Positions 8,479 to 31,943 of a DNA stretch of 33,212 bases are shown piece after piece (within the stretch, counting starts at the first letter, position 1; each line of letters starts with the position of its first letter). Location of the stretch: NCBI GenBank assembly GCA_025201365.1, contig JAIXMF010000134.1:1-33212 (forward strand), read 5' to 3'. The stretch comes from Syncephalis plumigaleata. Lineage: Eukaryota; Zoopagomycota; Zoopagomycetes; Zoopagales; Piptocephalidaceae. Below the pieces are notes generated by a model, which worked only from the letters and a program-made list of their open reading frames with translations, was not told where the DNA came from and made no database searches. Position numbers and translations under genes: made by a program.

Positions 8479-9051
8479 TCTGTTAAGCAACAACAACAAC
8501 AACAACAACGAAGGAATGTATAGCAAGAAAAGAAACGTCGATTGACGATAATAATAATAGAAGATTCTGACAATTGACAGTTCATGCGGTTACACGACAT
8601 GACAGACTTTCAGCATTCATCTAATTGGTACTAATCTGCTATGTGTACAACTTACAAGTATCAGATTGCCCATTCAGCTATACCAATATCCACTCCTAAT
8701 TGGCACGATGCAGTTGGAATAGTCTTGCGCTATCATGCGGATAGCAAATCTACTGGTCGATATCCACATGGATTGCATGGTAAACGTGCAGTCTGCTGAA
8801 TATTCCATTATTCCGAGTACAATTCATGTACAGAGAAGAGTATCGTATGGAGATGGTCTGATTGGTCTATGAGCATCTTGCTATGTTCACTAGGAATATC
8901 CGCCATCACCATCATCAGCTCGGCTATAAATCAAGCACTATTTGGCACACTCAACTAGTCATCTTCATATTCGTTCTTCTACTCTACTCTCTATTTTTTA
9001 CTTTTGTTCTAGTCTGTTTATCTGTCTATATCTCTCTAGGCCAACATCAAC
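8479..9051. other. Divergent promoter region, MED8 and micro-exon peptide gene
   Basis: Lies between two divergent starts. It contains a CAA/AAC repeat at about 8487-8510 next to the MED8 start and the TATA box of the peptide gene. The last 100 nt before the peptide ATG are strongly pyrimidine-rich. No coding exon found. Confidence 0.5.
8925..8931 (+). promoter_or_regulatory. TATA box of micro-exon peptide gene
   Basis: TATAAAT lies 121-127 nt before the ATG at 9052, within GGCTATAAATCAAG. Comparable boxes precede the other two secreted-protein genes in the window. Confidence 0.6.
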
Positions 9052-10560
9052 ATGAAGTACTCTGTCATTATCGCTATTGCCGTCGCCGTTGTCGCTCTCA
9101 CCAGTCTGGTCGCCGTTGAAGCTAGTCCCGTCCTGGATCGTCGTGGTATGTCTGGCCGTGACCCTATCAGTTGATGTACTAATCGTAGCCTATTGTTTCA
9201 TTGTCTACCGATGATTACCGATAGCTCGTAAGTTCATGTATATTAAATGGTTGTTTTGACACGCTAATCACATTGTAATGTTTATTCTGCATATTAATTT
9301 GTTAGCTCAATGGGGTAAGCTAGTTTATTGACCATGACAAGTGCTATGCTAATAGTAATATAAATTAAAATCATGTGTGATTACCATTTCAAGGACCTGT
9401 AAGTTATCATTCTGACTATGATGTACGAATACTAACTACGACATGGTTCGCCATTCTTGTATGCTTGTGGATAACAGCCTGTAAGCTAGTATCCTGATTG
9501 TAATGCACAATGTATTAATAATTATGATATGATACATGATCCACGTATGTTTGTATACTAGCCTGTAAGTTATCATTCTGATTGTAATGAATGGCGTACT
9601 AACTCTGCTATGACACATGATCCACATACATTTTGTATGACAGCCTGTAAGTTGACATTCCAACTATAATTATGCTGTACTAATTACGATTTGGCACACG
9701 ATCCACGTATGCTTGTGCATAACAGATGGTAAGTAATCAGAATGATTGCAATGAATGATGTGCTAATCGCGCTATGGCATACGATCCATTCATGTTTGCG
9801 TATGATAGATGGTAAGTTAATATTTCTGGCTGCAAGGAACCGGGCACTGATCGCAATATGGCACACAATCTATACATTATTGTATGATAGTGGGTAAGGT
9901 ATCATTCTGACTACAATGAATGAATACTAACTAAGATGTTTCTGTATGTTTCTGTATGTTTCTGTATGTTTCTGTATGCTAGATGGTAAGTCATTATTTT
10001 GATTGTAAGGAATGACCCATTAATTATAATACGGTACATGATTCATTTCCTTGCCTGCACCAGCCCGTAAGTTATCATTCTAATCGTAATGAACGAGGTA
10101 CTAATTATGATATGACACGCGATTCACATACGCTCCTGTATGATAGAGCGTAAGTTGCCATTTTGACCGTAATGAATGAATGACATACTAACTGTGATCT
10201 AACACATGGTCCACGTATGTTCCTGTATAATAGAAAGTAAGTAATCATTCTGACTACAATGAATGAGATACTAATCACAACGTGGCACACGATCCATCTG
10301 CTTACCTGCACCAGCCTGTAAGTTATCATTCTAATCGTAATGAACGAGGTACTAATTATGATATGACACACGATCCACGTATGCTTCTGCCTAACAGCTT
10401 GTAAGTAATCATTTCAACCGTCATCTACGATACACTAATTACAATACAATCTACATTGATTGAATGATAGGATCAATAAGCGGTAAGTAATAATCCACAA
10501 TAATCATACTCATACTAATCCATTATGGTTACAGAGCAAGACAAGGACATCATCAAGTAG
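9052..10560 (+). CDS. Secreted-peptide precursor built from single-codon micro-exons
   Basis: Exon 1 (9052-9145) encodes a signal peptide (MKYSVIIAIAVAVVALTSLV..) ending near VEA, then SPVLDRR, a likely Kex2-type dibasic site. Exon 1 leaves one G of a split codon. Seventeen introns follow (70-89 nt, the last 52), each with a GTAAGT-like donor, TACTAAC-like branch point and AG acceptor. Exons: 9225-9227, 9306-9314, 9394-9398, twelve further 3-nt exons, 10471-10482 and 10535 onward. Joined in order they give APQWGPPPPMMWMPSKPLDQ and a TAA at 10477-10479, i.e. 51 residues in total. That stop is 3 nt before the last exon junction, too close to trigger ordinary nonsense-mediated decay. No Cys is present, so the tail is not disulfide-folded. 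Function is unknown; a processed signalling or defence peptide is possible. The main alternative is that one long intron spans the region and the array is unspliced, but the regular splice signals and the clean reading frame argue against it. Confidence 0.72.
9936..9975 (+). repeat. 10-bp minisatellite inside one array intron
   Basis: Four perfect copies of ATGTTTCTGT lie between the branch point and acceptor of the intron at 9894-9982. They account for this intron being 89 nt long instead of about 79. The splice signals are untouched. Confidence 0.95.
10054..10374 (+). repeat. 251-bp three-unit duplication within the array
   Basis: Segments 10054-10123 and 10305-10374 match over 70 bp with two differences. 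One difference falls in the micro-exon itself and is silent (CCC versus CCT, both Pro). The offset of 251 bp equals three intron-plus-exon units. The next micro-exons downstream of the copies differ (AGC versus CTT). Confidence 0.9.
10471..10560 (+). other. Alternative terminal exons of the micro-exon gene
   Basis: A 12-nt exon GATCAATAAGCG (10471-10482), an intron of 52 nt, and a last exon from 10535. In phase 0 the 12-nt exon reads Asp-Gln-stop. If one nucleotide is carried in, as when the 5-nt exon is skipped or exon 1 joins here directly, it reads (G)-S-I-S and continues through the last exon as EQDKDIIK to TAG at 10558-10560. Carry-in of T (from CCT or CTT) would instead make TGA at once. 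Both readings are plausible endings. Confidence 0.5.
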
Positions 10561-10723
10561 ATATTATAGGTATTCAAGCCAAGAATGTATTGGTGCAAGA
10601 CCCTCATTTAGTGTCCATGTCATTCAAGTCATTATTCCTTGGTACAACAACAACAAGTATATCAACAAGTCCCTTACGTCTATTCATCCATGGTCCTATT
10701 ACATAAATATCAACCATTTATTG

Positions 10724-10729
10724 AATAAA
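10724..10729 (+). terminator. Polyadenylation signal of micro-exon gene
   Basis: AATAAA about 165 nt after the last stop codon of the peptide gene, in a TA-rich context. Confidence 0.5.
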
Positions 10730-11021
10730 TATGTAATGCTTTAGGGCATTCTTTTATTCCATTTTACACTTATCAATTATACTATTATTATGATCATGTA
10801 GCGAGTAAATATATACTCGAAAGAGAAATTTAATCCCTATTGCCATTAGATCCGAGATTGTCACCATTAGAGGTCAATTGTTATGATTTGTTCAATAAAC
10901 AAACAAAAAAAAGCGAGTAGACCACGTGTTATTACGGCTATAACTGTTACTTATCAGTGTTGATAACACATGCTAACCATTTAGCCACTTCATTGTATCG
11001 TCATAATTTGCATGAACAATC

Positions 11022-11227: not shown

Positions 11228-12709
11228 ATGTGGCACCATTCAATTGTAATCGTGTTGTGTTCACTTGTTGTGCACAACTTATCGGTGACCGCTAATGATT
11301 ATCAACTTCTTACTAGCACTCCCAATGCTCCTGTTTACGTGTCACGAATTACCGGTAAATCGTTTAGTATGACACCCTATTACGAACACACAGGCATAAA
11401 GGCATTCCACGAAAAGTACCACTGGTACGGTCAAGGTGTAACTATCGCCATTATTGGTGGTGATGTCAACCTTCAGCAGCGTGTGTTTACCGATGCAGCA
11501 TCGTCCAATGAACCATGCATGATAGATAAAGAGGACTATACAAAACAACCTCAGAAGAGTAGTGTCGTGTCCTATCAGATCGATCATCGACATGGCACTG
11601 AAATGGCCGCGATTATCAGGGCAAGAACCAAGACATTTAAAGGTGTTGCACCAGAGGCTAGACTAAATATTTACAAGGTATTCGCATCTCATGCACCTAC
11701 CTCGACTTCAATAGTGCTTGAAGCATTCCAAGCGGCCATACGCGATAAAGCGGATGTTGTAGTATTGCCAGAAATTGGTATAACTGATTCATCCGATACA
11801 CCGCTATTGAAACGAGAAATCATTAGTGTGGCCAATCAAGGAGTGATTATACTAGTGGCTGCTAGTAATCACAACTATCCCGTGGATCCAAACACTTCTG
11901 CTTATTTCCCCTATAATGGACTGCCAGTTATTTCAGTGGGTGGTGTCAAATTATCCTATCGTATGTCGCACTGGTTTACCATGCTTAATGTTCCATTGAT
12001 TCGTTTTACGTTTACATCGCCTTGCAGTGATATGAAGACTAAACTTGACGAGGTAAACATGATCTCACTCGCTGAATTACGAACACGGAATCGAGCATCT
12101 ATGAGCGAGTTAGTCAGGAACAAGATTGTTCTCGTCATGGATCAACAAATGGGCGATGATGAATTGCTTAGCATGATTCAGAGTATGGATATCGCAGGTA
12201 TTGTCACTGATATACGGGATCATCAGCAACTATCATGCGGCAGGCCTTTATTTATTATTAGTAAATCAGATGGTCAACTCATCAGTGGCATGTATAGGAA
12301 GAATCCACGACAAATGCTCGTGTTCGCCGGTGAACATGGTAATATTAATGAAAATAGTCCCGCTCTCGTTGATTCCATGGATGCTACATCGCCTTACGGT
12401 AAACCATCTGTTAAGCCTGACATTCTAGCGCCTAGTCAAGATCTATTCACCGTAACGAATACCGCCTTCAATCATGGCTACATCCAGTATAGTGGTATCG
12501 ATGCTGCCGTCTCGTATGCGGCAGGTGCTGTTGCCTTATTTATTCAAGCCAAGGAACGAACGAATATTAATGTGTTCACCGTAAAGCGTGCACTTCAAAA
12601 TACCGCTTCTGACGTGTATTATTCATTGACTCGTAAAGGTCTTCAACCGGTTAAATACCCATATGCCGGTCTACTAAATGTAGAACAAGCACACTTTATG
12701 ACTAGATAA
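11228..12709 (+). CDS. Secreted subtilisin-like (S8) pseudoprotease with PA-like insert
   Basis: An intronless 493-residue protein with a signal peptide (about residues 1-22, ending SVTA). The S8 fold is traceable: GQGVTIAIIGGDV (68-80) is the Asp strand, HRHGTEMAAII (120-130) the His block, VILVAASN (207-214) the oxyanion Asn region, SVKPDILAP (394-402) the conserved K-P-D-(I/V)-x-A-P segment, and YSGIDAAVSYAAGAVAL (421-437) the Ser helix. The catalytic Asp position is Gly77 and the Ser position is Asp425, in GIDAA where active enzymes have GTSMA. His122 and Asn214 remain. Residues about 250-370 look like a protease-associated (PA) insert (VRNKIVLV, then DIAGIVTDI). It should be secreted and not act as a normal serine protease; a binding, decoy or regulatory role is inferred. 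The frame is intact, so it is not a decaying pseudogene. Confidence 0.85.
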   Translation: MWHHSIVIVLCSLVVHNLSVTANDYQLLTSTPNAPVYVSRITGKSFSMTPYYEHTGIKAFHEKYHWYGQGVTIAIIGGDVNLQQRVFTDAASSNEPCMIDKEDYTKQPQKSSVVSYQIDHRHGTEMAAIIRARTKTFKGVAPEARLNIYKVFASHAPTSTSIVLEAFQAAIRDKADVVVLPEIGITDSSDTPLLKREIISVANQGVIILVAASNHNYPVDPNTSAYFPYNGLPVISVGGVKLSYRMSHWFTMLNVPLIRFTFTSPCSDMKTKLDEVNMISLAELRTRNRASMSELVRNKIVLVMDQQMGDDELLSMIQSMDIAGIVTDIRDHQQLSCGRPLFIISKSDGQLISGMYRKNPRQMLVFAGEHGNINENSPALVDSMDATSPYGKPSVKPDILAPSQDLFTVTNTAFNHGYIQYSGIDAAVSYAAGAVALFIQAKERTNINVFTVKRALQNTASDVYYSLTRKGLQPVKYPYAGLLNVEQAHFMTR

Positions 12710-17643: not shown

Positions 17644-18282
17644 TTAATAATCATTATCAGATTTGTAATCATTCTTGGGTTTGTATTCGTTCTTGGGCTT
17701 GTATTCATTCTTGGGTTTGTATTCGTTCTTTGGCTTATACTCGTTCTTGGGCTTGTATTCGTTCTTGGGCTTATACTCGTCTTTTGGCTTATACTCGTCC
17801 TTGGGCTTGTATTCGTCCTTGGGCTTGTATTCATTCTTGGGCTTGTATTCGTTCTTTGGCTTATACTCGTTCTTTGGCTTGTATTCATTCTTGGGCTTAT
17901 ACTCGTCCTTGGGCTTGTATTCATTCTTGGGCTTGTATTCGTTCTTTGGCTTATACTCGTTCTTTGGCTTGTATTCATTCTTGGGCTTATACTCGTCCTT
18001 GGGCTTATAGTCATTCTTGGGCTTATAGTCATTCTTGGGCTTGTATTCGTTCTTTTTGCTGCTATACGGATCCTTGGTTTCTACTACTGAGTAGATGTCC
18101 TCAGGTGGAACGTAAGCGTCATCGCTGGTTGATGGTAAATTGTTGTTGTAGTCGTGTTGGAAGCGTCGGAGAATTCGAGCTAAATGATCGTGCTGATCAT
18201 CGGCGGAAATTCCTGAAGCGGAAATGGCAACAAGTGCGCCAGCGCACAAAGCCATACCAAAAACAGAGTTGAAGCGTACCAT
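17644..18282 (-). CDS. Secreted (E/D)YKPK(N/D) hexapeptide-repeat protein
   Basis: A single exon of 212 residues. An N-terminal signal peptide (MVRFNSVFGMALCAGALVAI, cleaved near ISA) is followed by about 55 residues of hydrophilic linker containing VPPEDIYSVVETKDPYSSKK. Then come 21 uninterrupted hexapeptides of the form E/D-Y-K-P-K-N/D, a degenerate copy (DYKSDN) and the end DY. The repeat region is about 60% of the protein. It has two Lys, one Tyr, one Pro and one or two acidic or amide residues per six, so it should be disordered, strongly charged and regularly spaced in Tyr. No Cys, GPI site or catalytic motif is present. A cell-surface, wall-associated or adhesive role is plausible by composition only. 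The gene lies on the minus strand with its own TATA box. Confidence 0.85.
   Translation of the reverse strand: MVRFNSVFGMALCAGALVAISASGISADDQHDHLARILRRFQHDYNNNLPSTSDDAYVPPEDIYSVVETKDPYSSKKNEYKPKNDYKPKNDYKPKDEYKPKNEYKPKNEYKPKNEYKPKNEYKPKDEYKPKNEYKPKNEYKPKNEYKPKNEYKPKDEYKPKDEYKPKDEYKPKNEYKPKNEYKPKNEYKPKNEYKPKNEYKPKNDYKSDNDY
17665..18052 (-). repeat. 18-bp coding minisatellite with a 90-bp higher-order repeat
   Basis: The tract is made of 18-bp units encoding the hexapeptides. Segment 17821-17910 is repeated without a single difference as 17911-18000, a block of five units, while neighbouring single units differ by synonymous or N/D changes. The array therefore grew in blocks and recently. Because the unit has no stop in several frames, long false open frames run across it on both strands. 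Confidence 0.93.

Positions 18283-28365: not shown

Positions 28366-31943
<3,578 letters not shown>

Follow-up and report, generated by a model that had tools for sequence, protein, structure and literature searches.

Here, we describe a gene of the fungus Syncephalis plumigaleata (Zoopagales, Zoopagomycota) whose mature peptide is, for the most part, spelled by exons of a single codon in splice-site models. The gene lies at 9052-10560 of contig JAIXMF010000134.1, a stretch of 33,212 nucleotides (nt) that is called the window below, and it is one member of a large secreted-peptide gene family in this species. With good confidence, the sequences can be read as genes for secreted peptides that would be cut after an Arg-Arg site, and whose mature part would be assembled codon by codon from single-codon exons.

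The gene models come from a dynamic programme in which donor, branch site and acceptor are scored, exons may have any length and multiples of three are not favoured. In the window gene it finds 17 introns of 52-89 nt and 16 internal exons, whose sizes in order are 3, 9, 5, then twelve of 3, then 12 nt, with thirteen 3-nt exons in all. A preliminary description had proposed exactly these introns and exons by reading the letters, and the length-blind programme recovers the same structure. All 17 introns are GT-AG with a YTRAY-type branch site and have the features of spliceosomal introns. The first 3-nt exon (CTC) is in phase 1 and splits codons, and the 5-nt exon moves the phase; therefore, each of the other twelve 3-nt exons is exactly one codon. 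When the predicted exons are joined, the frame is open and gives the 51-residue secreted precursor that had also been predicted, MKYSVIIAIAVAVVALTSLVAVEASPVLDRR-APQWGPPPPMMWMPSKPLDQ, in which APQWGPPPPMMWMPSKPLDQ is the tail and the stop codon TAA falls inside the 12-nt exon.

Reading frame, layout and size of the family

The strongest evidence is the reading frame of the family. In the length-blind models of the 26 arrays scripted as complete, 614 of the 698 internal exons are exactly 3 nt long. None of 623 in-phase 3-nt exons is a stop codon, while 20.4 stops would be expected from position-specific composition or 31.9 from overall composition (P about 1e-9 or lower). This set does not include six broken or incomplete models (L011, L019, L025, L040, L049 and L056), which likewise have no stops. 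The first stop falls in the terminal micro-exon in 21 of the 26 complete arrays. The order of parts is also recurrent: first a leader exon of 94 nt that ends in phase 1, then a few short ones (3 and 9-12 nt are common sizes), a switch to phase 0 by an exon of 5 or 2 nt, the single-codon exons, a stop exon of 9-16 nt (usually with TAAGCA or TAAGCG), and an exon of the 3' untranslated region (3'UTR), which begins with AACAAG or AGCAAG in most arrays. The phase-switch exon is present in the 21 intact complete arrays, which contain 8-45 single-codon exons each, plus a few 6-nt exons. GTAAGT is the donor of 656 of 886 introns, and some introns start with GC, not GT. Two arrays, L039 and L022, are exceptions to this layout. 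L039 (minus strand, leader at 1500) has a run of exons of 9-12 nt; its early exons are mostly of 9 and 12 nt and code for a Pro/Glu/Ala-rich stretch, and the module size therefore varies within the family. The largest array is L022 (minus strand, leader at 2554), which has 65 introns in the locus and is incomplete there; its 3-nt exons are followed by a tract rich in 6-nt exons that codes for a Pro/Arg-rich tail. In L060, about 50 introns are modelled for a precursor of 81 residues, and 45 one-codon exons stand in a row.

As controls, the programme was run on 300 dinucleotide-preserving shuffles of the window array; the highest counts in any of them were 10 introns and one 3-nt exon, versus 17 and 13 in the unshuffled array. 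Part of the array, at 9474-9660, is also listed by Tandem Repeats Finder, with a period of 81. The shuffles alone are no proof of function, since the family itself served to train the splice-site models and the array is a tandem repeat that has diverged. In the 32.6-Mb assembly of 383 contigs, where the window is contig C40, AG lies exactly 3 nt upstream of the common intron start GTAAGTNATCATTCT at 317 of 343 sites, and backward-read controls for the GTAAGTNATCATTCT start patterns gave 0 matches each. The pattern AGNNNGTAAGT-N25-50-TACTAAY has 1425 matches in the genome versus 26 when reversed, and some of the listed matches look unrelated to arrays. The common start is carried by 121 of the 991 introns in the models; based on this fraction and the 343 sites, array introns may total in the low thousands across the assembly, counting alleles.

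The preliminary description was right about the structure of the gene; as a single case it did not stand, since the 31-residue leader has at least 150 scored matches in the genome, from 166 candidates. Alleles are included in this count, because small contigs can repeat large ones (for example, L061 and L062 give identical peptides). The retrieved loci, twenty of which were picked for their array matches, hold 47 distinct leader copies. Array models with at least 10 introns were obtained for 38 of them, eight are intronless (L042, L044, L045, L048, L020 at 733, L058 at 325, and minus-strand copies in L057 and L030), and one (L023), whose leader is apparently three bases longer, was left out of the modelling. 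The 30 loci around the leaders nearest to that of the window comprise 18 array models, six repeats of modelled loci (L029, L031, L033, L051, L053 and L055), four that are intronless at the queried copy (L042, L044, L045 and L048), and two (L043 and L058) without a settled model there. Of 48 family leaders, 41 have the sequence TATAAA in the 200 nt ahead of them; among the seven others, L062 has just 31 nt of upstream sequence. Thus, the models and the family bear out a fungal gene with a string of single-codon exons and a dibasic site ahead of its tail, as originally suggested.

In the intronless paralogues, the leader is followed by one short, uninterrupted reading frame and a 3'UTR much like that of the array genes. 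The leader of L045 continues directly into CTCCTCAATTTGG, which is close to what an array gene would make from separate exons (CTC plus CTCAATGGG in the window gene). Just after the stop of L045, TAAGCA is directly joined to AACAAGACAAGG, which is the splice junction predicted for the last intron. Sequence much like the 3'UTR of the window gene comes after the last junction in other array genes and after the stop in the intronless paralogues. The intronless copies in L020 (minus strand, 733) and L058 (minus strand, 325) code for a longer secreted protein, Gln-rich and coiled-coil-like, whose leader and 3'UTR are of the same kind. No contiguous copy of the joined tail of the window gene and L026, or of the L059 tail, was found genome-wide, in a search that had no positive control and carries little weight.

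Two database proteins of S. plumigaleata also follow the micro-exons for the most part. The protein BDF22DRAFT_685685 (P0009) contains 38 of the 41 residues that the model assigns to single-codon exons, and BDF22DRAFT_685769 (P0010) contains 40 of 45. No Pfam family scored above the cut-off in nine family proteins. The features of the window gene are collected in Table 1.

Table 1. Features of the array gene in the window (positions as in the window; "splice model" refers to the dynamic programme)
Feature	Position	Strand	Basis or remark
TATA box (TATAAA)	8925..8930	+	read directly; 127 nt upstream of ATG
Exon 1, 94 nt, phase 1 at its end: signal peptide plus short propeptide with terminal Arg-Arg	9052..9145	+	
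Intron 1 (GTATGT...TACTAAT...ATAG)	9146..9224	+	splice model; missing from intronless paralogues
3-nt exon CTC (phase 1)	9225..9227	+	splice model
9-nt exon CTCAATGGG	9306..9314	+	splice model
5-nt phase-switch exon GACCT (phase 1 to 0)	9394..9398	+	splice model
Array of twelve single-codon exons, each after an intron of 78-89 nt	9399..10400	+	splice model, shuffles
Single-codon exons 1-4	CCT 9478-9480; CCT 9562-9564; CCT 9644-9646; ATG 9726-9728	+	
Single-codon exons 5-8	ATG 9809-9811; TGG 9891-9893; ATG 9983-9985; CCC 10064-10066	+	
Single-codon exons 9-12	AGC 10147-10149; AAA 10234-10236; CCT 10315-10317; CTT 10398-10400	+	
Intron 16 (GTAAGT...CACTAAT...ATAG)	10401..10470	+	splice model
Terminal coding exon GATCAATAAGCG: Asp-Gln-stop	10471..10482	+	splice model; TAAGC[AG]-type ends recurrent in family
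Intron 17, in the 3'UTR (GTAAGT...TACTAAT...ACAG)	10483..10534	+	splice model; not in intronless L045
3'UTR exon AGCAAGACAAGGACATC..., AATAAA at 10724-10729	10535..10740	+	3' end inferred

Constraint and divergence between paralogues

In six pooled pairs of paralogues, the donors differ at 7 of 624 positions and the acceptors at 2 of 312, compared with 214 of 6553 in the rest of the intron (p = 0.0015 and p = 0.004, respectively). For the branch site (15/726 versus 214/6553, p = 0.09) there is a trend at most. The splice sites are held, so, while the codons drift or diversify. The pairs differ among themselves in this respect: there is no micro-exon change in L030/L057 (0/53), L035/L036 (0/72) and the near-identical L060/L034 (0/53), while micro-exon change is above that of introns in L028/L021 (6/77) and window/L032 (5/56, an alignment-dependent count that may also come out as 9/64 or 4/44), and window/L061 has 3/56. 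In a comparison of ten pairs, the p-values are 0.056 for window/L032, 0.019 for L028/L021 and 0.007 for L047/L049 (four aligned introns), and the other seven are not significant. Eight aligned 3-nt exons have changed in these ten pairs; six are in phase 0, and all six changes are nonsynonymous, a hint of diversifying change on the codons for which six of six are too few to make a claim.

Paralogues also differ in DNA by gain or loss of whole modules of codon plus intron. For example, L028 and L021 differ by a deletion of 996 nt with both ends in introns, and the difference amounts to exactly 12 exons and 12 residues. Between the window gene and L032 and L061, the gaps are of 150 and 174 nt, about two units; the window gene has twelve in-phase 3-nt exons, and L032 and L061 have ten each. 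The core WGPPPP is common to all three genes and WGPPPPMMW to the window gene and L061. Among 676 introns (without L034 and L057; pairs were prefiltered for 9-mers in common), 134 pairs from different genes are at least 90% identical; 76 of these share the same upstream codon and 63 the same downstream codon, against a background of 3%. The best-ranked pairs represent duplication of whole arrays, and near-identical introns have different neighbours in some cases (L026/L014, L014/L025). Shuffling of modules between genes was considered on this basis, and recombination is not demonstrated.

Codon usage in the single-codon exons is peculiar when compared with six contiguous open reading frames (ORFs) of the window, taken as listed and not curated as genes. 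Gln is encoded by CAA in 24 of 24 cases and never by CAG (0/24), versus 31 CAG of 70 in the window ORFs (p = 2e-5). This avoidance would be expected if CAG beside a donor acted as a rival acceptor. The codons TAC (0/17 versus 38/86) and TTC (1/18 versus 31/59) are scarce as well; unlike the avoidance of CAG, their scarcity is without a ready splicing explanation.

Alternative explanations and a proposed mechanism

Several observations weigh against the codon-by-codon reading. When the joined triplets are read in shifted frames, 5 and 60 stops are found in 622, so that the first of these frames is also stop-poor. Five of the 26 complete arrays are broken or without a clear model, owing to a two-base exon (L011, L019), a stretch of 94 or 95 nt without a clear exon structure (L040 and L025, respectively) or a 3-nt exon in place of the usual 5-nt one (L049). 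On the minus strand, the leader of L010 did not match as an open frame, so that this copy has probably decayed or was misassembled. Because the arrays are repeats related by paralogy, and some of them are alleles, the family counts are not independent. Among the 18 named family proteins of S. plumigaleata, four were aligned with the models, and two of these, BDF22DRAFT_657705 (P0017; 24/38) and BDF22DRAFT_698013 (P0008; 7/32), follow them in part; the P0010 protein runs on into intron 2, apparently through an error of prediction. The other 14, read unaligned, include several that look partly mis-spliced. Finally, in the pooled pairs the micro-exons change as fast as the introns (14/367 versus 214/6553, p = 0.55), and in L032/L061, which was kept out of the pool because both genes are already paired with the window, they change faster (14/56 versus 110/893). 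Purifying selection on the peptide is therefore not visible, and was rejected as a line of support.

Then, could one gene yield many peptides through the skipping or inclusion of single-codon exons? Phase-0 exons of 3 nt are symmetric, and any one of them could be left out in frame. Single residues that correspond to single exons are missing from the database models P0009, P0010 and P0017, and the passages at hand on the micro-exon genes (MEGs) of schistosomes describe variation made by skipping (PMC5825161). The missing residues could reflect skipping or annotation error, and just as easily the latter, given that P0010 also has an intron read through. Moreover, the donors are near-uniform and strong, which suggests constitutive use, skipping of the 5-nt exon would change the frame, and the intact models read open to the stop with every exon included. 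Consequently, we regard combinatorial isoforms as unlikely.

It is very improbable that the array is one long intron from 9146 to 10470 or 10534, that is, a satellite with decoy splice sites in a gene whose product is the leader plus a short tail. Such an intron would agree with the tandem repeat reported for part of the array, and exon 1 joined to 10471 or to 10535 is also open, the last exon reading EQDKDIIK-stop. However, it would leave the 0 stops in 623 exons, the conserved phase-switch exon and the selective conservation of donors and acceptors without a cause, and the database models use the micro-exons. The intronless paralogues stop ahead of the would-be EQDKDIIK sequence, and the equivalent sequence is therefore 3'UTR in them. 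The least probable alternative is that the arrays are decayed relics patterned by tandem duplication alone, for while six copies do look broken (the five arrays above and the L010 leader) and micro-exons and introns change at the same pace in the pooled pairs, 21 of the 26 complete arrays are intact, TATAAA stands ahead of the leader in 41 of 48 copies, and donors and acceptors change less than the remaining intron.

Returning to peptides assembled from single codons, we infer from this anatomy how each exon would actually be spliced, in which order, and how the product would be cleaved and used. The leader has a typical signal-peptide layout, judged by eye; SPVLDRR or a close variant comes next, and the array starts directly behind Arg-Arg. 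The leader exon would thus provide the signal peptide and a short propeptide, whose terminal Arg-Arg we take to be a site of the Kex2 type; as the array starts right after it, cleavage would free a peptide encoded almost wholly by micro-exons. The mature peptide would be spelled nearly entirely by single-codon exons, each accompanied by an intron of about 80 nt with its own donor, branch site and acceptor. The spliceosome would take out these introns one at a time, via intron definition, and neighbouring introns would probably be removed consecutively, because a 3-nt exon cannot hold acceptor and donor complexes together. Once an intron had been removed, the codon just joined would form positions -3 to -1 of the next donor. 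The arrays would grow by tandem duplication of the codon-plus-intron module, and unequal exchange between introns would add or remove whole residues in frame. The peptide would be secreted, cleaved behind Arg-Arg and active outside the cell, most likely on the fungal host, Syncephalis being a mycoparasite. A secreted effector or an antifungal peptide is the likeliest role, and a Cys-Cys pair is found in 10 of 16 aligned family peptides. More tentatively, and perhaps rather less probably than the opposite, the rule of one exon for one amino acid could be a frame-proof means of peptide diversification by intron exchange; if skipping occurred too, one locus could yield a library of single-residue variants.

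Other features of the window may be noted here. A subtilisin-like protease (Peptidase_S8) is encoded by a single ORF at 11228-12709 on the plus strand, directly downstream of the peptide gene; the best of its hits are an S. pseudoplumigaleata protein (42% identity) and another protein from S. plumigaleata (31%). As the subtilase itself is missing among its own search hits, contig C40 may be absent from the annotated protein set. A predicted secreted protein with a long run of EYKPKN/DYKPKN hexapeptides (an 18-nt tandem repeat) lies at 17647-18282 on the minus strand, and protease-like ORFs lie at 28366-31065 on the same strand; the ORF at 30061-31065 has matches to PDZ-type domains and a weak one to part of a trypsin-like domain. 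The window gave no Rfam match at gathering scores and no tRNA with ARAGORN.

Comparison with known micro-exon systems

The matches listed for family proteins are S. plumigaleata proteins and unnamed or generically named sequences, and MEG sequences were not compared directly. Five metagenome proteins (P0023, P0024, P0025, P0027 and P0028) carry the leader, and what comes after it resembles intron 1 read through, so that arrays may follow on their contigs. No report of strings of 3-nt exons in a fungus was found in the literature searched, from which subscription papers were mostly absent. With respect to the precursor, an analogy may be drawn with conotoxins, which have a conserved signal and pro region and a variable, often Cys-rich mature peptide that is not split codon by codon. 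The Syncephalis genes have a similar leader and variable mature peptide, and there the mature region would be split in this way.

The other comparisons are with systems as described in parts of the cited papers. The S. plumigaleata genome itself has been used for binning (PMC7865070). In schistosome MEGs, about 80% of the coding region lies in short symmetric exons of 6-36 bp, and duplication and shuffling of micro-exons have been discussed (PMC5825161). The Syncephalis genes resemble them in that they have many paralogues and that short symmetric exons make up much of what is coding, and their products, too, are predicted to be secreted. Unlike MEGs, they are fungal genes with mostly 3-nt exons, below the 6-36 bp range in 614 of 698 cases, and the diversification is seen between genes rather than isoforms. 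The preliminary description had called the window gene a MEG-like system, which holds for the similar logic, with even smaller exons; membership of the schistosome MEG family is unsupported. Judging from gene structure, the gene appears to work like a micro-exon gene, and the comparisons do not place it in any known family.

Aphid bicycle genes are fast-evolving putative effectors recognisable by gene structure, with about 17 exons on average and internal exons nearly all in phase 2 (PMC9168663). They are likewise a large family with many micro-exons; in Syncephalis, however, the internal exons start in phase 1 and then in phase 0, single phase-0 codons follow the phase-switch exon, and a short peptide lies behind a dibasic site. 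The SP7-like effectors of arbuscular mycorrhizal fungi, compared by description, are also a fungal secreted effector family, with a conserved intron, and belong to another fungal lineage; the word "microexon" has 0 occurrences in the main text of their paper (PMC11333574). Exons of 1 and 3 nt are known to be spliced singly in plant APC11 and VPS55 and in fly homothorax, and introns flanking plant micro-exons are likely removed consecutively (PMC8831610, PMC7392893). These are lone exons in ordinary genes, whereas the Syncephalis exons form strings of up to 45.

If transcripts confirm the models, the Syncephalis genes would be the micro-exon gene family with the smallest exons among those compared from these sources; the aphid megacycle gene, with more than 100 micro-exons (PMC9168663), would still be ahead in exon number. 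They would then be a test case for how the spliceosome deals with back-to-back 3-nt exons and sequential intron removal, their exon structure itself would be a frame-proof route to effector-peptide evolution, and they would open the secretome of understudied mycoparasites, whose gene models are right only in part. The family would also be a concrete instance, open to checking, of micro-exon effector genes that arose by convergence in flukes, aphids and fungi.
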